DNA of 64,000 nt, from positions 62,001 through 126,000 of the forward strand of contig CAIOYC010000032.1 of NCBI GenBank assembly GCA_903862425.1. The letters run 5' to 3'. The DNA is from an uncultured Caulobacterales bacterium (lineage in GTDB: Bacteria > Pseudomonadota > Alphaproteobacteria > Caulobacterales > Caulobacteraceae). Within the stretch, counting starts at the first letter, position 1. Each line of letters starts with the position of its first letter. Both the position numbers and the translations under genes were made by a program. The notes below the pieces were generated by a model that was not told where the DNA came from, did not search any database, and was given only the letters and a program-made list of their open reading frames with translations. Below, one piece after another: positions 43,406-53,183 of the stretch.

Positions 43406-44809
43406 ATGTTGATCGGGGAGCTTAAGGGGCGGTTGGCGTCCGCCGAGTGGCGTGCGCGCGCCTTGACCGTGGCGGTGCTGGCGGCGGCGTGGCTGTTCGT
43501 AGCGACCCTGAACTGGCCGGGCCATCTGTCCTACGACTCGGTGCTCCAGCTGCTCGATGCGCGCACCGGCCTCTACCACACCTGGCACCCGCCGTTCATG
43601 GCTTGGCTCCTCGGCCTGGGCGACGGACTGGTCCGGGGAACCGGCCTCTATGTGATGGGGCAAGGATTGCTGTTGTTCGGCGCGTTGGCGGCCATCGTGA
43701 TCGCCAGTCCCAAGGTCGGACGGTTCTCGCCGCTGCTCCCCCTGGTCCTGCTGCTCTCGCCGCTCGTGGTGCTGTGGCAGGCCATCGTCTGGAAGGACGT
43801 GCTGTTCGCCGACCTGACCGTCGCAGGTTTCGCGGCGCTCTATTTCGGCCAGAGCCTGCGGCTCGGGCGGTGGTGGTCGCTCGCCGTGGCGGCCAAGGGT
43901 CTCGTGCTGCTGGCGGCGGCAAGTCTGGTGCGCCAGAACGGGGCGACCGTCCTGCTGACGGGCGCGGCGGCGCTCGGCTATGGCGTCTGGCGATCGGCCG
44001 ATGGAGCGAGCGGGCAAAGCCGCCGGCTACGAGCCGCATTGGCCGGGCTGGCCGCGCTGGCCTTCGGTCTGCTGGCGGCCCTGGCGATGAACCTGGCGGT
44101 GCTGACCCGCGCGGTCGACCGGGGCGGCCCCATCGCCCAGATCCACATGCTGCAGACCTTCGACGTGGTCGGCGCCGTCGCCCATGACCCGTCGCTGGAG
44201 CTGGATCATCTCGACCCGTCCACCGAGGCGCTGATCCGCACGACGGCTGCGCACGTCTACACCCCGGCGCGCAACGACGGCCTGCTGGGCAACGACTTCA
44301 ACCGGGCGACGGTGGAGGCGGCGGACGACATCCAGGACCAGTGGCTCGACATCCTGCTGCACCATCCACTCCCCTATGTGGAGCACCGGCTGGCGGTGCT
44401 CGGCTGGCACCTGACCTCGCCGCTGAAGGTCTGTCCCCGCGATGCTACCGGGATCGACGGGCCGCTGCCACAACTGAAGATGCTCGGTATGCACCTGCAG
44501 CAGACGCCGCGCGACCTTCGCCTCGAGCAATATGCCAGCCTGTTCCACCACACACCGATCTACTCGCACTGGTTCTATGCGGCGCTGGCGCTGGTGCTCA
44601 TCGTGGTGATGTTCCGCTCACGGGAGCGTGCCGACGCGGTATTCGGCTTCATGCTGATCGGCGCGCTGGGGTTCGTCGCCAGTTTCGTGCTGATCGGCGT
44701 GGCGTGCGACTACCGGTATCTCTACGCGCTCGACCTGTGCACCCTGGTCGCGGCGTTCCGATGGGCGCTGGGTCTTGGGGTGAGGCCTGTGGTCAGCGCG
44801 GACGGCTAG
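43406..44809 (+). CDS. Polytopic membrane protein, possible GT-C glycosyltransferase
   Basis: Inner-membrane protein of 467 residues with about 10 transmembrane helices in the N-terminal half and two to four near the C-terminus, separated by a polar periplasmic-looking segment (residues ~240-390). A conserved block near the start, GHLSYDSVLQLLDARTGLYHTWHPPFMAWLLG, has a D and an H on the loop after the first helix, as GT-C (PMT/ArnT-like) enzymes carry a catalytic Asp there. The donor would be a polyprenyl-phosphate sugar. This is inference; function is otherwise unknown. It converges with the polysaccharide synthase gene, overlapping it by 17 bp. Confidence 0.6.
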   Translation: MLIGELKGRLASAEWRARALTVAVLAAAWLFVATLNWPGHLSYDSVLQLLDARTGLYHTWHPPFMAWLLGLGDGLVRGTGLYVMGQGLLLFGALAAIVIASPKVGRFSPLLPLVLLLSPLVVLWQAIVWKDVLFADLTVAGFAALYFGQSLRLGRWWSLAVAAKGLVLLAAASLVRQNGATVLLTGAAALGYGVWRSADGASGQSRRLRAALAGLAALAFGLLAALAMNLAVLTRAVDRGGPIAQIHMLQTFDVVGAVAHDPSLELDHLDPSTEALIRTTAAHVYTPARNDGLLGNDFNRATVEAADDIQDQWLDILLHHPLPYVEHRLAVLGWHLTSPLKVCPRDATGIDGPLPQLKMLGMHLQQTPRDLRLEQYASLFHHTPIYSHWFYAALALVLIVVMFRSRERADAVFGFMLIGALGFVASFVLIGVACDYRYLYALDLCTLVAAFRWALGLGVRPVVSADG

Positions 44810-47800
44810 GGGCTTCGCGGACCTGGACCGAGCCGGTGCGCTTCAGCTTGCCCCAGGCCTGGCCGGTGCCCCCCAGCGCCCGGATGATCGAGCGCCAGAC
44901 CACGATGTACATGATCTGCCGATAGACCAACCGCTGGGTCGGCAGGATCAGCAGCTCGCGTTTGTCGTCGCCGTCGAAGGCGTAGGCCACCCAACCCGCC
45001 GCCATCTCCAGCACTAGAAAGGCGACATAGATGCCGACGATCAGCCACAGCATGGGGTCGGGCGACATGGGCGTATCCGGATGTTCGCGCGATTGCTGCC
45101 ACGCCACGAAGCGCGCCACGGCCGCCACGACCAGTTGCAGATCCACGAAGGGCGCCAGGATCTGAGCCACGAACTGGAACACCCAAAGGGTCGGTAGCGA
45201 CAGCCAGCCGAACCAGCCGTAATGGAACAGGGCTGCGCGGTGCTTCCACAGGCACTGCAGCGTACCGAAGCTCCAGCGGAAGCGCTGGCGCATCAGGGCG
45301 CCCAGAGAGGCTGGCGCCTCGGTATAGGCCAGGGCGTTGCCCTCGTTGACGATGATCCAGCCGGCGCGGCGCAGACGCCAGGTCAGGTCCATGTCCTCGG
45401 CCAGGGTGTCGGAACTGTAGCCGCCGACCTCGACCAGGGCGCTGGCGCGGTAGGCGCCGATGGCGCCGGGAACCACGGTGATGCCGTTGAGGCGCGACAT
45501 GGCCCGCCGGTCGATATTCTGGGAGGTGACGTACTCCACCGACTGCCAGCGGGTGACGAGATTGGAGCGGTTGCCGACCTTCACATTGCCCGCCACCGCG
45601 CCGACGGTCTCGTCGGTGAAGCGGCGCGCGAGGAGGGCGAGGGCGTCGGGCTCAAGCTGGGTGTCGGCATCGACACCCACGACGATGGAGGCGTCGGACA
45701 TGGATAGGGCCAGGTTCAACGCCGAGGCCTTGCCGCCGTTTGCCTTGCGGGCGAACCGAACGCGCGGATCGTCGCCGAACCGCCGCTGCACCAACTGACC
45801 CGTCGCGTCCGACGAGCCGTCGTCCACCACGATGACGTGCTGATCGACGTCGCGGCAGGCCAGGATGCTGCGGATGGTCCGCTCGATCACCTTTTCTTCG
45901 TTATAGGCGGCTACCAGCACGTCGACGCGTGGATTGTCGAGCATGGGCGGGCGCGCGGGCGCGCGGCGGGCCGCCAGGGCCAGCATCAGCGATATCCGTA
46001 ACAAACCGAGCGCCACCGCCCCAGCGAAGCCCCAGAAGAGGATGATCGCGGCGATGCGGCGGATGGTGAAGCCAAGTGCGCCCATCTGCACCAGCGCCCG
46101 ATCGGCGGCGGGGATGGCGGGCATGGTCTCTGCGCGACTGCGCCCTTCAAGCTCGCCCACCGTAGTGAACCTGTAGCCCTGGGCCTGCAGGGTGGTGATC
46201 AGATTGTCGATGGCGCCGGCGGTGGCGGAACGGTCCGCGCCGCCATCGTGCAGCAGGATGGCCTGGCCCTTGTGCAGGTTCGCCATGACCGCCGCGTCGA
46301 TGTCGGCGCTGGTCAGCCGGTGGATCGAGCCGTCCGGCTCGTGGCGAAAGATGTCCCAGTCGTTGGGATCGATCGATTCGCCAGCGGTGATGTAGCCCTG
46401 CTCGGCGGCCACGGCGATCGGCATGATCTCGCCATAGCTACGCGGCTCGGAGTCGGCGTTATAGGGCGGACGGAACAGCACCACCGACCGGCCAAGAATG
46501 GCCTCGAAGGCGCGTTGGGTCGCCGACAGCTCCAGCCGCACCCGATCCTCGCCCACGTGCGCCATGTTGGGGTGGGTGAAGGAGTGGCTGCCGATCTCGT
46601 GGCCCTCGGCATAGACGCGCTTGACGATATCCGGATAGTCCACCGCCTCCTCACCGATCATGAAGAAGGTGGCTTTGATTCCCCGCCGTTTCAGGATGTC
46701 GAGGATGGCGGGGGTCCAGGTGGGGTCGGGTCCGTCGTCGAAGGTGAGTGCCACGGTCTTTTCCGGCGCACCGCTACGCTCCACCAGCCAACCGGACGGG
46801 AAGACGGTGTAGCTTTCGTCGGTGATCAGGCCGGTGACGGGATCGCGCTCATAGACGCGGTTGCCTGCCTGGGGCCGGCGCACCACGCGCAGCAGTTCGC
46901 CGTCGCCGATGAAGTCGACCTGCTGGGGCACCACCACCCGGTGCAGGTCCGGCTGTGGGTCCGCCTTGCGGCCGAAGGCGGTCCAGACCGACGGATCTTC
47001 CATGCCGAGCGCCCAGAGCGCGGCGCCCCTGATCTTGAAGGCGCGGCCGAGGGTCAGCGCGTTCTCTGCAGTTACGGCGTCCAAGAACCAGACTTCGTGC
47101 AGCTGTCCCTTGTCGTCATTGTACTGAAAGGTCGGCTCCATGGCCGCGTCGTCGAAGTCGAGCGCGTCCTCGGGCTTGTCCTTGCCGCGATAGCGCACGA
47201 GCAGGGCCACGGCCTGCTGGTTGGTGACGGTTTCGGTGTACTGGTCCGGGATGTTCCAGTCGTAGCCATAGGAGCCGACGCCAAGGATTACCTTCTGCAC
47301 GCCGATCACCGGCGCGAATTTGCGAAGCGCTTCCTGGGTGTAGTTGGCGGAGGCGACGGCACCGGGTTTGCTGAAGCTGCCATGCTCGTCATAGGCCATC
47401 ACCACAGCGTAATCCGCTGGGGCCGCCAGCATCTGCGCGTCGTGCGGGTCCATGTCGGTCTCGATGGTGACCGAGATCTCCTTGCCCAAGGCGTGCATCT
47501 GGCCCGCCAGCAGCCGCAACCAGGCGGAGAGGCGCGGGGTCATGGCGGGTTGCAGGCGTTCGAAGTCTACCTGCACACCGGCATAGCCGTTCTGCTGCAC
47601 GAAGGCGGCGAGCTGGCTCACCAGCGCCTTCGACGCGACCGGATCGTCCAGCATCTGCGCCAGGCGCTTGGTGTCGAATACGCCGGCCTGGGCGTTGGAT
47701 ATCACCGGTACGATGCGCACGCCGTTGGTGTTGGCGATCCGAACGAGATCCTTGGTGGTCAGACTGCGATCGGGCCGCCAGAAGTCGGTGACCAGGCCCT

Positions 47801-48212
47801 TGCCGTCCGGTGTCAGCGAGATCCAGGCCGGATAGATGTGGGTCAGGTCCGCCGCGTGGGCCTTGAAGCTTTCGATGCCGGTGTCGCGCCAGGGGGCGAA
47901 ATAGGCCCCGCGGATGGAGTCGGCGCCTGAGACCGGCTTCAGTGCCGCATGGCGTCGATCCGCCTCGATGCGGGCGAACAGCTGCTTGCGCGCGGCCGCG
48001 AGCTGGGTGCTCGACACCTTGTGCGCCGGCCGCGCCGGCTGGGGCAGGCTGGTATGATCGAAGAAGCTCAGGCGCGGCGCCGAAGCCACGCTGAAGCTGA
48101 AGGCAGCCAGGATGGCGATAGCCAAGACGGCCACCACAGCCGCGCCGATCCGCAGGTTGCGCGCGCGCGCCCCGGTGGGGTCGAGAAAGATATGGCGTGG
48201 CGGTTCGGACAT
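44793..48212 (-). CDS. Trifunctional GH18-like / polysaccharide deacetylase / GT2 synthase
   Basis: Single chain of 1139 residues. A transmembrane helix at 21-43 leads to a GH18-like domain (~100-420) with the catalytic-site pattern GVQVDFE (D216, E218). A NodB carbohydrate-esterase domain (~480-690) has TFDDGPD at 490-496, HSFTH at 543-547, RPPYN at 581-585 and LHDGG near 654. After a transmembrane segment (~715-748) comes a cytosolic family-2 glycosyltransferase: VVDDGSSD ~796-802, DADTQ ~848-852, EDMDLTWR and QRFRW, ending in more helices. It resembles PgaB (deacetylase plus hydrolase) joined to PgaC (synthase) of PNAG systems. The polymer is not known. It lies divergent from nothing; kdpE is upstream on the same strand, 108 bp away. 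Confidence 0.88.
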   Translation of the reverse strand: MSEPPRHIFLDPTGARARNLRIGAAVVAVLAIAILAAFSFSVASAPRLSFFDHTSLPQPARPAHKVSSTQLAAARKQLFARIEADRRHAALKPVSGADSIRGAYFAPWRDTGIESFKAHAADLTHIYPAWISLTPDGKGLVTDFWRPDRSLTTKDLVRIANTNGVRIVPVISNAQAGVFDTKRLAQMLDDPVASKALVSQLAAFVQQNGYAGVQVDFERLQPAMTPRLSAWLRLLAGQMHALGKEISVTIETDMDPHDAQMLAAPADYAVVMAYDEHGSFSKPGAVASANYTQEALRKFAPVIGVQKVILGVGSYGYDWNIPDQYTETVTNQQAVALLVRYRGKDKPEDALDFDDAAMEPTFQYNDDKGQLHEVWFLDAVTAENALTLGRAFKIRGAALWALGMEDPSVWTAFGRKADPQPDLHRVVVPQQVDFIGDGELLRVVRRPQAGNRVYERDPVTGLITDESYTVFPSGWLVERSGAPEKTVALTFDDGPDPTWTPAILDILKRRGIKATFFMIGEEAVDYPDIVKRVYAEGHEIGSHSFTHPNMAHVGEDRVRLELSATQRAFEAILGRSVVLFRPPYNADSEPRSYGEIMPIAVAAEQGYITAGESIDPNDWDIFRHEPDGSIHRLTSADIDAAVMANLHKGQAILLHDGGADRSATAGAIDNLITTLQAQGYRFTTVGELEGRSRAETMPAIPAADRALVQMGALGFTIRRIAAIILFWGFAGAVALGLLRISLMLALAARRAPARPPMLDNPRVDVLVAAYNEEKVIERTIRSILACRDVDQHVIVVDDGSSDATGQLVQRRFGDDPRVRFARKANGGKASALNLALSMSDASIVVGVDADTQLEPDALALLARRFTDETVGAVAGNVKVGNRSNLVTRWQSVEYVTSQNIDRRAMSRLNGITVVPGAIGAYRASALVEVGGYSSDTLAEDMDLTWRLRRAGWIIVNEGNALAYTEAPASLGALMRQRFRWSFGTLQCLWKHRAALFHYGWFGWLSLPTLWVFQFVAQILAPFVDLQLVVAAVARFVAWQQSREHPDTPMSPDPMLWLIVGIYVAFLVLEMAAGWVAYAFDGDDKRELLILPTQRLVYRQIMYIVVWRSIIRALGGTGQAWGKLKRTGSVQVREAPSRPR

Positions 48213-48319: not shown

Positions 48320-49012
48320 CTATTCGCTGACGAAGCGGTAGCCCACGCCCGCTTCTGTAATCAGGTGGCGCGGGTTGGCATGATCCGGCTCCAGCTTCTG
48401 CCGTAGCTGGGCCATGTAGGTTCGCAGATACTGCACATCCTCCGCATTCGCCGGACCCCAGATCTTGGTCAGCAGCTGGCGCTGGGTCAGCACACGGCCG
48501 CCGCCCTTCACCACCTCGGCCAACAGGTCGTATTCGCGGGGGGACAGGCGCACCGGTTCGCCCGCGCGCAGCACCCGGCGCTTGACGAGGTCGATCTCCA
48601 ACTCACCGGCATGAATCACAGGCTCCGCACCGACCGCCTTCAGCTTGTTGCGGATCGCGGCGCGCAGACGCGCGAGGAGTTCGCCGACGCCGAAGGGCTT
48701 CTCCACATAGTCGTCGGCGCCGTTGTCCAGCGCCCTGATCTTCTCGGTCTCCCGGTCACGGGCCGACAGGATCAGGATGGGACCGCCATAGGCGGCGCGG
48801 GCTTTCACCAGGACGTCCTGCCCATCCATGTCGGGCAGGCCGAGATCGAGGATGACCGCGTCGGGCTGGGCGCGGTGGGCCAGTTCGGTCAGGCCTTCAG
48901 CGCCTGTCAGGGCCTTGATCGGCTCGAACCCTTCTGCATCGAGCGCCGGGGTGAGGAAGCGATGGATCTGGGGCTCGTCGTCGATGACGAGAATGCGCGG
49001 GCGGCCGGACAT
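48320..49012 (-). CDS. kdpE: Potassium operon response regulator
   Basis: OmpR/PhoB-class response regulator of 230 residues that turns on kdp at low K+ or high osmolarity. The receiver has IDDEPQIHRFL at the start, the phospho-acceptor Asp in AVILDLGLPDMDG and KPFGVGEL near 105; the C-terminal winged helix carries REYDLLAEVVKGGGRVLTQRQLLTKIWG and the YLRTYMAQLRQKLE recognition region. ATG 49012 is used; TTG 49015 is in frame. It follows kdpD by 13 bp. Confidence 0.95.
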   Translation of the reverse strand: MSGRPRILVIDDEPQIHRFLTPALDAEGFEPIKALTGAEGLTELAHRAQPDAVILDLGLPDMDGQDVLVKARAAYGGPILILSARDRETEKIRALDNGADDYVEKPFGVGELLARLRAAIRNKLKAVGAEPVIHAGELEIDLVKRRVLRAGEPVRLSPREYDLLAEVVKGGGRVLTQRQLLTKIWGPANAEDVQYLRTYMAQLRQKLEPDHANPRHLITEAGVGYRFVSE

Positions 49013-49025
49013 CAAAACATTTCCA

Positions 49026-51755
49026 TCACAGCAGCATATGGTGGGTGGCGATGGTCTTGGGCAGGCTGATCAGTACGCGGGTGCCGCGAAGACCGGTGGC
49101 GGCGTCGCCATGGATGGGGCTGGCGGCGGCGATGCGCCCGCCCTGCGCCTCCACGAAGCCCTTGGAGATGGCGAGGCCGAGGCCGATCCCTTCGCCGCGG
49201 TCGGATGGCTGCTCCACCCGGCGGAACTTGTCGAACACCCGCTCCAGCTCGGGGCCGGGAATGCCCTTGCCCTCGTCCTCGATGGAGATGACCACATTGG
49301 CCCGGTCCTCATAGGCCGCCACCTCGATGGCGGTGTCTTCGGGACTGTAGAGGATGGCGTTCTCCAGGATGTTGACCACCGCTTGTTCGAGCAAGGTGGG
49401 GTCGGCTTCGACCATCGAGAGCTGGAGCGGGAAGTCGCGCAGCAGCCTACGCCCGCCCAGACGGCGTTGCACGCGCTCGATGGCGGCGCCCAGCACATCG
49501 CGCACGTCGGTGGCTTGAAGGCGGGTGTTCAGCGCCCCGCCTTCCAGCCGGGTCATGTCCAGCAGGTCGCCCACATATCGGTTGAGCCGGTCCGCCTCCT
49601 CGCGGATGGACTGGAGCAGCTCGCGGCGCACCGGAGCCTTGATGCCCTCGCCGTAGTCCAGCAGCGTGGTGGCGGCGCCAAGGACGGTGGAGAGCGGTGT
49701 GCGAAGGTCGTGGCTGATCGAATTGAGCAGGGCGGCGCGGAGCTGGTCCGAACGACGCAGGGCTTGAGCCTCAGCGGAGGCGGAGGCCAGTTCGGCCCGC
49801 TCCAGCCCCACAGCGCCCTGGTCAAGCAGGGCAAGCAGCAACCGCTCTTCCGGCGAGCCCGGTGCGATCCGTCCGGCCTCGATCCCGGCCACGCCCGAGC
49901 GCGCCTTCAGCCCCTGCAACGGCCAGAAGCTCCAGCCCACCTGGGGCATGGTGCCGGTACCTACACCTGCGGGTTCGCCCTTCTCCCAGGCCCAGCGCGC
50001 GGCGGCCATGGCCCCGGTGGACAGCGGCTTCATGTCGGGCGCGCCGGCCGCGGGCTGGATTTCTCCGTCCTTGGGCAGGAGCACGATGGCCGCCCCGCCC
50101 ACCGCCGCCGCCGCCTGATCCGCCAACGCCCCAGCCGCTTCCGCCCGTGTGGCGACGGCGGACAGGGTTCGGCTGGCGGTCAGCAGCGAGGCGATGGCCG
50201 CCGCGCGGCGCGATGTGGCCCTCGACTGATCTCTCAGCCGCCCGGCCAGGGAGCCGGCGATCATGGCCACCGCGAAGAAGACCGCGAAGGTCAAAAGGTC
50301 CGTGGCGTGGCCGATGACGAAGGAGAGGCGCGGCTCCAGGAAAAAGAAGTTGTAGCTGACCGCCGCTAAACCCGCCGCCGCCACCGCTGGTCCGAAGCCG
50401 GACGACAGGCCGGTGAGCAGCACGGCCAGCAGGAAGATCATGGCGAGGTTGGCGCCGGACGCGGTTCGGTCGATCACCGCCGCCAGTCCGTTGGCCGCAG
50501 TCGCCGCGCCGAGGGCGATGGCGTAACCGGTCCAGCGCGCGCGCGCGGCGAACCGGCGGGGCGGCGCTTCGGTCTCGCCCGGCGCCACATCCGTCACTAC
50601 GTGCAGGGCGACGCCTGCCGCCCGCTCGAGCAGGACGTGCGCCAGCGACTGGCCGAACAGCGCGCGCCAGCGCGGCGCCCTGAAGCGCTGCGGCGCACGG
50701 CCGATGACCAGCTGGGTGATATTGTTGCGGCTGGCGTATTGCAGCACCGCGCCGGGCAGATCGTCGGCGGTGAGATTGACCACCGAGGCGCCCAGCTGCT
50801 CGGCCAGCTTGAACGCCGCCGCCGCCCGCCCGGCTTCGGTCGGGCCGCCGGGGCGATTGGGGCGCTCCACATGCATGACCGTCCAGCGGGCGTCCATCAT
50901 ATCGGCCAGCCGGCGGCCCGCGCGCACCAGGGAGGTGGCGAGCGGATCGCCGCCGATCAGCACCAGAATGCGCTCGCCTGCCGCCCACGGCCCCTCGATC
51001 CCCGTGCGGCGCATGTGGCCGACCAGGGCGTCGTCCACCGTCTGGGCGGCGCGGCGCAGGGCCAGTTCGCGCAGGGCGGTGAGGTTTTCGACCTTGAAGA
51101 AACGATCCGAGGCCAGCCGCGCCGTCTCCGGCACATAGACCTTGCCGTCCGCCAGCCGCTCACGCAGCTCCTCGGGCGTGATATCCACCACCTCGATGGC
51201 GTCGGCGCGGGCGAAGGCTTCGTCCGGCACGGTCTCCTGCTGACGGATGCCGGTGATGCGCCACACAACCTCCACCAGGCTTTCCAGGTGCTGGACGTTC
51301 AGGGTGGTCCAGACGTCGATGCCGGCGACCAGCAACTCCTCCACATCCTGCCAGCGCTTGGGATGGCGCGAGCCCGGCGCGTTGGAGTGGGCATACTCAT
51401 CCACCAGCAGGAGCTTGGGCCGCCGGGCAAGGGCCGCGTCGATGTCGAATTCCAGCAGGGTCCGGCCGCGATACTCGATCGGCTTTCGCGGGAGGACCTC
51501 GAGCGGCCCGACCAGGGCCTCGGTATCCTTGCGGCCGTGGCTCTCGACCACGCCCACCACCACGTCCAGGCCGTCGGTCGCGCGGCGGGCGGCGGTGGAC
51601 AGCATCTCGTAGGTCTTGCCCACGCCGGGCGCCATGCCGAGGAACACCTTCAGCCGTCCCCGACCCTCCTGCCGCGTCGCGGCGAGCAGGGCGTCCGGAT
51701 CGGGGCGGTTCTGCTCTGCGCGATTCTGCTCGGCGCGATTTGGGTCGGGGGGCGT
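49026..51755 (-). CDS. kdpD: Osmosensitive K+ channel histidine kinase
   Basis: Membrane sensor kinase of about 909 residues. The N-terminal KdpD domain has Walker A GMAPGVGKT and VDEYAHSNAPGSRH; a USP domain (~245-360), four transmembrane helices (~400-500), a GAF-like region, then the HisKA box LLNSISHDLRTPLSTVLGA and HATPase motifs (NILENAIL, GKGIPGPELERVF, GLGLAIS). The conserved stretch RPDPDALLAATRQ..RGRLKVFLG lies upstream of the first ATG/GTG, so translation likely starts at ACG 51755, 6 nt after AGGAG; GTG 51647 would cut conserved sequence. Confidence 0.93.
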   Translation of the reverse strand, partial: TPPDPNRAEQNRAEQNRPDPDALLAATRQEGRGRLKVFLGMAPGVGKTYEMLSTAARRATDGLDVVVGVVESHGRKDTEALVGPLEVLPRKPIEYRGRTLLEFDIDAALARRPKLLLVDEYAHSNAPGSRHPKRWQDVEELLVAGIDVWTTLNVQHLESLVEVVWRITGIRQQETVPDEAFARADAIEVVDITPEELRERLADGKVYVPETARLASDRFFKVENLTALRELALRRAAQTVDDALVGHMRRTGIEGPWAAGERILVLIGGDPLATSLVRAGRRLADMMDARWTVMHVERPNRPGGPTEAGRAAAAFKLAEQLGASVVNLTADDLPGAVLQYASRNNITQLVIGRAPQRFRAPRWRALFGQSLAHVLLERAAGVALHVVTDVAPGETEAPPRRFAARARWTGYAIALGAATAANGLAAVIDRTASGANLAMIFLLAVLLTGLSSGFGPAVAAAGLAAVSYNFFFLEPRLSFVIGHATDLLTFAVFFAVAMIAGSLAGRLRDQSRATSRRAAAIASLLTASRTLSAVATRAEAAGALADQAAAAVGGAAIVLLPKDGEIQPAAGAPDMKPLSTGAMAAARWAWEKGEPAGVGTGTMPQVGWSFWPLQGLKARSGVAGIEAGRIAPGSPEERLLLALLDQGAVGLERAELASASAEAQALRRSDQLRAALLNSISHDLRTPLSTVLGAATTLLDYGEGIKAPVRRELLQSIREEADRLNRYVGDLLDMTRLEGGALNTRLQATDVRDVLGAAIERVQRRLGGRRLLRDFPLQLSMVEADPTLLEQAVVNILENAILYSPEDTAIEVAAYEDRANVVISIEDEGKGIPGPELERVFDKFRRVEQPSDRGEGIGLGLAISKGFVEAQGGRIAAASPIHGDAATGLRGTRVLISLPKTIATHHMLL

Positions 51756-52355: not shown

Positions 52356-53183
52356 TCACCACTTCTTCGAAATGCCGACATAGGCCTGGGCGCCCGGCGT
52401 CTTGTCGTTGAGGCCGATATTGACGCCGCAGTCGAGCTGCAGGGTCTTGCCGATCAGCTTGGCCACGCCGAAGTCGAGGGAGGCCTGGTTGATCGTGCGC
52501 GCCGGGTCGAAATTCCAGTCGGACCATAGCTCGCCATAGACGGTGAAATCGGCGGGAAGGCTGTAGCCGATGTTTATGGTCTGGGCGGTATTGGCGTGGC
52601 GCCCGTCGCCGGTGGAGTCCTTGAAGGCGTCCACCTCGGGCGAAAGTGTCAGGGTCCACTTGTCGTCCAGCTTGAGGTTGATCGGCATGGCCATCCCGCC
52701 TTCCCAGGCGCCGTTGCCGATGCCCATCCTCGCCGTCGGCGCCTTTACGTAAGGCACAAGCGCGATCTGGGTAGTGCCGTCCGCTGAGGCGTAGATCTGA
52801 TCCTTAAGCCGCAGATAGAGGTCGCCGACCCCGTCGATGGTTTGGCTGCCGGACGCATCATGCGTCCGGACGGTGACGTAGGGCGCGATATTGGCCTCTA
52901 CGTCTAAGGTCTTGGTCAGGCCGTATTTGAGCGTGGGGTTGGTGTAGAGCCAGGTGTCGGTGGTGACCCCGTCTTGCCGCTGGAACGTCCCGTTGAAGAG
53001 GTCGGTCTCCAGCTGGAACGAGCCGGGATCGGCGGTGCAGGCGGCGTACGACTTGGTCGGCCGGTCGGCGCAGATGGCGCTGGGGCCGGGGTCGGCGGGA
53101 GGCGCAGCCGGGGCCGCCGCCTGCTGGGCGAAGGCTTCGCCGGAAAAGGCCATGGCGGCGATGAGAGGCAGGGCGAGGCGCAC
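52356..53183 (-). CDS. Putative outer-membrane beta-barrel protein inside the kdp operon
   Basis: Exported protein of 275 residues. A signal peptide (LALPLIAAMAFSGEAFA-Q) is followed by a short Pro/Ala linker, a Cys-containing segment (SAICADRPTKSYAACTADPG) and an alternating-strand region from about 55 to the C-terminal YVGISKKW, whose final aromatic residue fits an outer-membrane barrel. The pattern resembles the MetA-type 'transporter' family (FQLETDLFNGTFQ, LKYGLTKTLDVEANIAPYVT). It lies between kdpB and kdpC with gaps of 12 and 7 bp, so it is co-transcribed. A role in potassium access across the outer membrane is inferred. Confidence 0.8.
   Translation of the reverse strand: MRLALPLIAAMAFSGEAFAQQAAAPAAPPADPGPSAICADRPTKSYAACTADPGSFQLETDLFNGTFQRQDGVTTDTWLYTNPTLKYGLTKTLDVEANIAPYVTVRTHDASGSQTIDGVGDLYLRLKDQIYASADGTTQIALVPYVKAPTARMGIGNGAWEGGMAMPINLKLDDKWTLTLSPEVDAFKDSTGDGRHANTAQTINIGYSLPADFTVYGELWSDWNFDPARTINQASLDFGVAKLIGKTLQLDCGVNIGLNDKTPGAQAYVGISKKW

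Follow-up and report, generated by a model that had tools for sequence, protein, structure and literature searches.

A predicted poly-GlcNAc synthase of the MatB/PgaC kind that carries GH18 and CE4 domains in the same polypeptide

The window, a 64,000-nucleotide stretch of a contig from an uncultured Caulobacterales bacterium, encodes one protein in which a GH18 hydrolase domain, a NodB/CE4 deacetylase domain and a processive-type GT2 synthase domain follow one another in a single chain. Among poly-GlcNAc synthases of the MatB/PgaC kind, it represents a variant with a GH18 domain, one that is widespread among bacteria and uncharacterised in the open literature searched. The protein probably operates as a one-polypeptide, synthase-dependent poly-GlcNAc machine whose product is likely to be partly deacetylated and PNAG-like.

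Results

Domain organization and predicted topology

The minus-strand reading frame is intact, extending from an ATG at 48212 to a stop codon at 44793–44795 (1139 codons; Table 1). The encoded chain consists, from N to C terminus, of a membrane helix, GH18, NodB/CE4, a second membrane helix, GT2, and C-terminal membrane helices, and a motif typical of the family (F-x-D-P-x-G-x-R) lies ahead of helix 1. As a first-pass annotation had claimed for this single 1139-residue chain, all three domains were recognized by Pfam above gathering scores (PF00704, GH18, 54.1 bits versus a cut-off of 29.6; PF01522, Polysacc_deac_1, residues 482–586, 126.2 bits; Glyco_tranf_2_3, 112.6 bits); the deacetylase extent to residue 688 was set by NCBIfam models. 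The catalytic patterns cited in that annotation are likewise all present, namely DFE (216–218), TFDDGPD (490–496), HSFTH (543–547) and RPPY (581–584) in the processing domains and DDGSSD (797–802), DAD (848–850), EDMD (939–942) and QRFRW (976–980) in the synthase.

Table 1. Features of the GH18-CE4-GT2 locus (positions in the window; residues of the 1139-residue protein).
Feature	Position	Strand	Basis or remark
GH18-CE4(NodB)-GT2 gene, 1139 aa	44793..48212	-	ORF call, Pfam, full-length homologues
Membrane helix 1, residues 15–43 (hydropathy 22–40)	48084..48170	-	hydropathy, AlphaFold2
GH18 domain, residues 103–404, catalytic D216/E218 present	47001..47906	-	Pfam, alignment, structure matches
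Small all-beta linker, residues 432–480, GH18 to CE4	46773..46919	-	AlphaFold2
NodB/CE4 polysaccharide deacetylase, residues 482–688, PdaB/PgdA/NodB type	46149..46769	-	Pfam, NCBIfam, structures
Membrane helix 2, residues 702–747 (hydropathy core 720–738), positive residues after	45972..46109	-	AlphaFold2, hydropathy
GT2 catalytic domain, residues 761–983, DDGSSD/DAD/EDMD/QRFRW	45264..45932	-	Pfam, NCBIfam, structure match, alignment
C-terminal membrane/interface helices, residues 999–1114	44871..45218	-	hydropathy, AlphaFold2
kdpE and kdpD, directly upstream, same strand	48320..51647	-	context; not conserved in relatives
467-aa protein, about 7 hydrophobic membrane helices, convergent	43406..44809	+	no Pfam or NCBIfam match

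Hydropathy analysis yielded four helices, the C-terminal two at residues 1014–1032 and 1054–1072, and an AlphaFold2 model built from 28 sequences (mean pLDDT 86.5) placed the membrane helices and the beta linker as listed in Table 1, with one single long membrane helix joining the CE4 and GT2 domains. Positive residues precede helix 1 and follow helix 2, which fits a cytosolic N terminus and a cytosolic GT2. Hydropathy, model and flanking residues thus support the topology put forward in the first-pass annotation, in which GH18 and NodB are extracytoplasmic and a membrane-embedded GT2 is predicted to face the cytosol. In Escherichia coli PgaC, two hydrophobic helices precede the GT domain and three follow it; the window protein has a PgaC-like plan (two helices before the GT domain and about three after it), with approximately 650 residues, GH18 and then CE4, inserted between helices 1 and 2.

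The GT2 synthase is PgaC-like to the same degree as MatB-like proteins

Processivity of the GT2 part is predicted from its D, DxD, ED and Q(Q/R)xRW motifs, its membrane helices and its fold: residues 724–1134 aligned over 375 residues with the hyaluronan synthase of a Chlorella virus, itself membrane-embedded (8snc; Z 31.6, rmsd 3.0), and a solved PgaC was absent among the structure and sequence matches returned. The best NCBIfam model was PgaC_IcaA (185.1 bits versus 99.6 for NodC), and the PgaC model was preferred over NodC in all relatives scored. The window score lies far under the curated cut-off of the PgaC/IcaA equivalog (TIGR03937; 422.3 bits), against which E. coli PgaC scored 648 as a control, so identity as a PNAG synthase is not assured; the NodC chitooligosaccharide synthase model (TIGR04242; cut-off 550) was also not reached. 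MatB-like CE4-GT2 proteins from Kocuria and Streptomyces scored 205 and 181, respectively, on the PgaC_IcaA model, and the window synthase is thus as PgaC-like as these proteins. BLAST identities were 35% over 270 aa for E. coli PgaC, 33% for NodC and 36% for NodB, as compared to 40% over 677 aa for the Streptomyces MatB-like protein and 35% over 685 aa for the Kocuria “bifunctional polysaccharide deacetylase/glycosyltransferase”. In a tree of GT2 sequences, the PgaC and NodC branches were too long to place.

Deacetylase and synthase residues are invariant, and the hydrolase acid is not

The CE4 module has the DD, HxxxH, RxPY and LLHD motifs, and its nearest models and structures were PdaB, PgdA and NodB. 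The closest solved folds of the GH18 part, by comparison with the model, were bacterial chitinases and SleL cortex-lytic enzymes (Z 33–35). Among 100 aligned members, the CE4 DD and H-x-x-x-H and the GT2 DxD, ED-x-D and Q-x-x-RW were kept in every one. The GH18 catalytic acid (D-x-E), intact in the window protein, was lost in seven of the 98 members that have a GH18 region: those of Sulfitobacter, where Pfam does not recognize the domain yet the region aligns, and Domibacillus, three further loci (L004, L072 and L078), and two of Granulicella (L057 and L067). Actinobacterial MatB-like proteins have no GH18 domain. Five of the loss cases are present in the GT2 tree and are scattered over different parts of it, so several separate losses of the acid seem likely. 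From the strict CE4 and GT2 residues, set beside this loss or absence of GH18, we infer that synthesis and deacetylation form the core function of the family; GH18 would act in trimming in most members and may act in binding in some.

The three-domain layout is widespread

A contig scan of genomes identified 227 stretches encoding relatives; in the 80 kept, the match mostly extended from residue 1–8 to 1130–1139. A full-size reading frame (1100–1190 aa, same domain order) was found in 98 of the 100 loci examined, and nearly half of the genomes of the window's own family had a match (96 of 199; E < 1e-120), one per genome. Full-length relatives with the same order in these loci and genomes show that the GH18-CE4-GT2 frame is neither an assembly error nor a product of chance. 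Across the phylum, sampled evenly, a match was present in 6 of 249 genomes, the window's own genome counted. The layout also occurs in Acidobacteria, deltaproteobacteria, Deinococcus, Prevotella, Sulfitobacter and Domibacillus; Pfam confirmed the three domains in Prevotella, Deinococcus, Domibacillus, Sphingomonas, one Desulfobacteraceae MAG and one acidobacterial MAG. Named strains and species with a homologue include Granulicella rosea DSM 18704, Granulicella mallensis and Edaphobacter aggregans DSM 19364. Plasmid records with the layout came from Novosphingobium, Sphingomonas, Sphingobium, Deinococcus, Prevotella nigrescens and Sulfitobacter, with the product called “glycosyltransferase” wherever annotated. 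Searches of the open-access literature returned neither a description of the GH18-CE4-GT2 layout nor an experimentally characterised member.

In the GT2 tree, the window copy grouped with those of an unclassified and a deltaproteobacterial MAG (L002 and L004; support 93/97), outside two clades that hold other copies from its family; the copy of a same-genus genome (G002, L117) belongs to one of these two clades. Since the support is moderate, horizontal transfer or differential loss of paralogues is raised here only as a lead.

Gene neighbourhood

No partner gene conserved in the window's family was found beside the gene, biofilm and polysaccharide genes included; the gene behaves as a stand-alone unit, fitting a self-contained machine. 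On the same strand, kdpE lies 107 bases upstream of the gene and is itself preceded by kdpD; the gap showed no promoter or terminator pattern. A kdp co-operon was rejected as a functional clue, as kdpDE does not lie ahead of the gene in the nearest, 75% identical homologue. The convergent 467-aa membrane protein overlaps the 3′ end of the gene by 17 bases, and a copy with 57.5% identity occupies the same convergent place at the nearest homologue (L001, a same-genus genome). A PMT_2-type membrane glycosyltransferase is divergent from the gene, approximately 130 bases away, in 57 loci, mostly acidobacterial (e.g., L050 2776–4197); hhalign gave no sign of a relationship between this glycosyltransferase and the 467-aa protein (probability 0.9%).

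In seven loci of the window's family, the gene precedes sucC-sucD-sucA-sucB (e.g., L105 11635–18001), an unrelated operon that was dismissed as a partner; a malate dehydrogenase gene adjoins at L116 (11496–12536), and both are odd sites for a polysaccharide gene. Elsewhere in the window, a 275-aa Phenol_MetA_deg-type frame (52356–53183, minus strand), probably an outer-membrane protein, lies between kdpB and kdpC and overlaps kdpC. A diguanylate cyclase follows the GH18-CE4-GT2 gene in Deinococcus (L125 9513–11048), and in D. taeanensis (L132 3072–3884) a stand-alone PgaC-like GT2 follows a protein with a GGDEF-like stretch, as read here; these neighbours are hints of c-di-GMP control. In Sulfitobacter indolifex, an 845-aa DUF3131 protein (L127 9015–11552) has a 4-base overlap with the gene and is a candidate partner. 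In Kocuria, a separate convergent GH18-like “chitinase” (L130 5023–6009; below the Pfam cut-off) adjoins the CE4-GT2 gene, an arrangement that looks as if the third domain had split off.

PgaA, PgaB and PgaD were not found in the genome

The first-pass annotation had noted no pgaA nearby. This absence extends genome-wide: no PgaA match over the cut-off was found in the window genome (99.89% complete) or in 59 relatives, matches to the PgaA model through TPRs only falling below the cut-off and being disregarded. No match to PgaB (TIGR03938) or PgaD (TIGR03940) was obtained anywhere in the window genome. E. coli was positive as the control for all three models. Three Wza-type Poly_export proteins are encoded elsewhere in the window genome and could serve as exporter.

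Discussion

The closest studied relative, judged by sequence, is MatB of Streptomyces, which has been linked to PNAG and in which a membrane helix connects a GT2 to an extracellular CE4; loss of matA or matB abolishes an F598-reactive, dispersin-B-sensitive polymer in Streptomyces (PMC5972031). MatB itself lay outside the collections compared, and its Streptomyces and Kocuria relatives stood in for it. The window protein resembles these in having an extracytoplasmic CE4, a membrane helix and a C-terminal PgaC-like GT2 in one chain, in homology over CE4-GT2 (35–40% identity), in its equal PgaC-model score, and in the N-terminal motif common to it and the Kocuria member; it differs in that the MatB-like proteins lack GH18 and come from monoderm bacteria. 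The idea that a single chain uniting synthesis with deacetylation has no precedent is not supported, as MatB already has GT2 and CE4 in one protein and full GH18-CE4-GT2 homologues are common. MatB is a well-studied counterpart for two of the three domains, CE4 and GT2, and not for the layout with GH18. That the polymer and its export route are new, as the first-pass annotation proposed, is unproven, the distance of the GT2 from PgaC being no greater than that of MatB-like proteins.

We infer the donor sugar, polymer, linkage, order of steps and biological role along the following lines. The C-terminal GT2 with its membrane helices would polymerise UDP-GlcNAc in the cytosol and pass the chain across the membrane in a channel of its own, in the manner of PgaC/IcaA, MatB and hyaluronan synthases. 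The emerging chain would then meet CE4 and GH18, both in the first extracytoplasmic loop, where CE4 may remove N-acetyl groups and GH18 may trim the chain or hold it at acetylated stretches. The resulting poly-GlcNAc would be deacetylated in part and serve in adhesion to surfaces or in aggregation; a PNAG-like, beta-1,6 polymer is more likely than a chitosan-like, beta-1,4 one.

A beta-1,4 chitin- or chitosan-like polymer or a chito-oligosaccharide, made by the logic of NodC and NodB plus a chitinase in one chain, is a rather unlikely alternative product. What counts against a PNAG-like product is that the solved GH18 and CE4 relatives have beta-1,4-GlcNAc polymers or peptidoglycan as their main substrates (chitinases and SleL; NodB and the PdaB/PgdA models), and the BLAST matches include NodC and NodB. 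The missing PgaD and PgaA-type exporter, and the lack of biofilm or polysaccharide genes conserved next to the gene in the window's family, also weigh against the preferred reading. Rhizobial NodC and NodB also parallel the window protein as a GlcNAc GT2 and a CE4 deacetylase acting in sequence, but they are encoded by separate genes, yield an oligosaccharide and are less similar in sequence; SleL/YaaH/YdhD and bacterial class V chitinases share the GH18 fold and catalytic D-x-E, but are free enzymes unattached to a synthase. The preference of the GT2 for the PgaC model argues for the PNAG-like product, and MatB, whose CE4 shows a chitin-type affinity too, gave a product with the behaviour of PNAG (PMC5972031). 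The absence of an exporter would in turn be explained by a glycan kept in the envelope, periplasmic or in the cell wall, with GH18 cutting it to periplasmic length, an idea consistent with the missing PgaA, PgaB and PgaD, with a GH18 near spore-cortex SleL and a CE4 near peptidoglycan deacetylases, and with the position of the gene after kdpDE, an osmotic/potassium system. Retention in the envelope nonetheless seems improbable, as the kdp neighbourhood is not conserved, the family occurs in monoderm Domibacillus, which needs no outer-membrane exporter, and the Wza-type proteins offer a possible route outward.

The first-pass annotation had framed the protein against the split between PgaB and PgaC, and this framing stands for the synthase alone: by sequence, only the GT2 is PgaC-like, while the hydrolase is GH18 rather than GH153 and the deacetylase is of the PdaB/PgdA/NodB kind. 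Membrane-embedded E. coli PgaC and staphylococcal IcaA share the GT2 motifs and number of N-terminal helices with the window protein, which adds the large extracytoplasmic insertion, is only about a third identical and comes without a PgaD. PgaB also combines deacetylase and hydrolase and acts after synthesis, but it is a separate periplasmic protein with another CE4 subfamily, the reverse domain order, and a GH153 hydrolase without the GH18 catalytic motifs (PMC5933820). A literal PgaB-PgaC fusion, belonging to a standard PNAG system whose PgaA is encoded elsewhere, would account for the same three activities and for PgaC_IcaA being the best GT2 model. It is nevertheless very improbable and was rejected on the subfamily and genome-wide tests, the genome having no PgaB-model match, the domain order being different and PgaA not being found. 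Bundalovic-Torma et al. described other Gram-negative PgaB-like/GT fusions without pgaA, in an order different from that of the window protein, and suggested other export modes (PMC7112194).

A more far-reaching version of the preferred reading, a partly deacetylated PNAG-like product of one polypeptide, is offered tentatively and with considerable doubt: with both processing enzymes in loop 1, the protein may be a self-contained machine that lets diderm bacteria produce deacetylated poly-GlcNAc and release it with no PgaA, PgaB or PgaD, GH18 serving as a chain-length or release device and, in some lineages, as a non-catalytic polymer-binding domain. GH18 is the sole enzyme of the three with a decaying active site, which bears on why synthases recruit hydrolases. 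If the one-polypeptide reading is right, a large set of diderms, among them many soil Acidobacteria and roughly half of the genomes sampled from one alphaproteobacterial family, would make deacetylated poly-GlcNAc through a single protein and no known exporter. PNAG-like polymers would then extend to organisms missed in pga- and ica-based surveys, and crossing of the outer membrane without PgaA would become directly testable.
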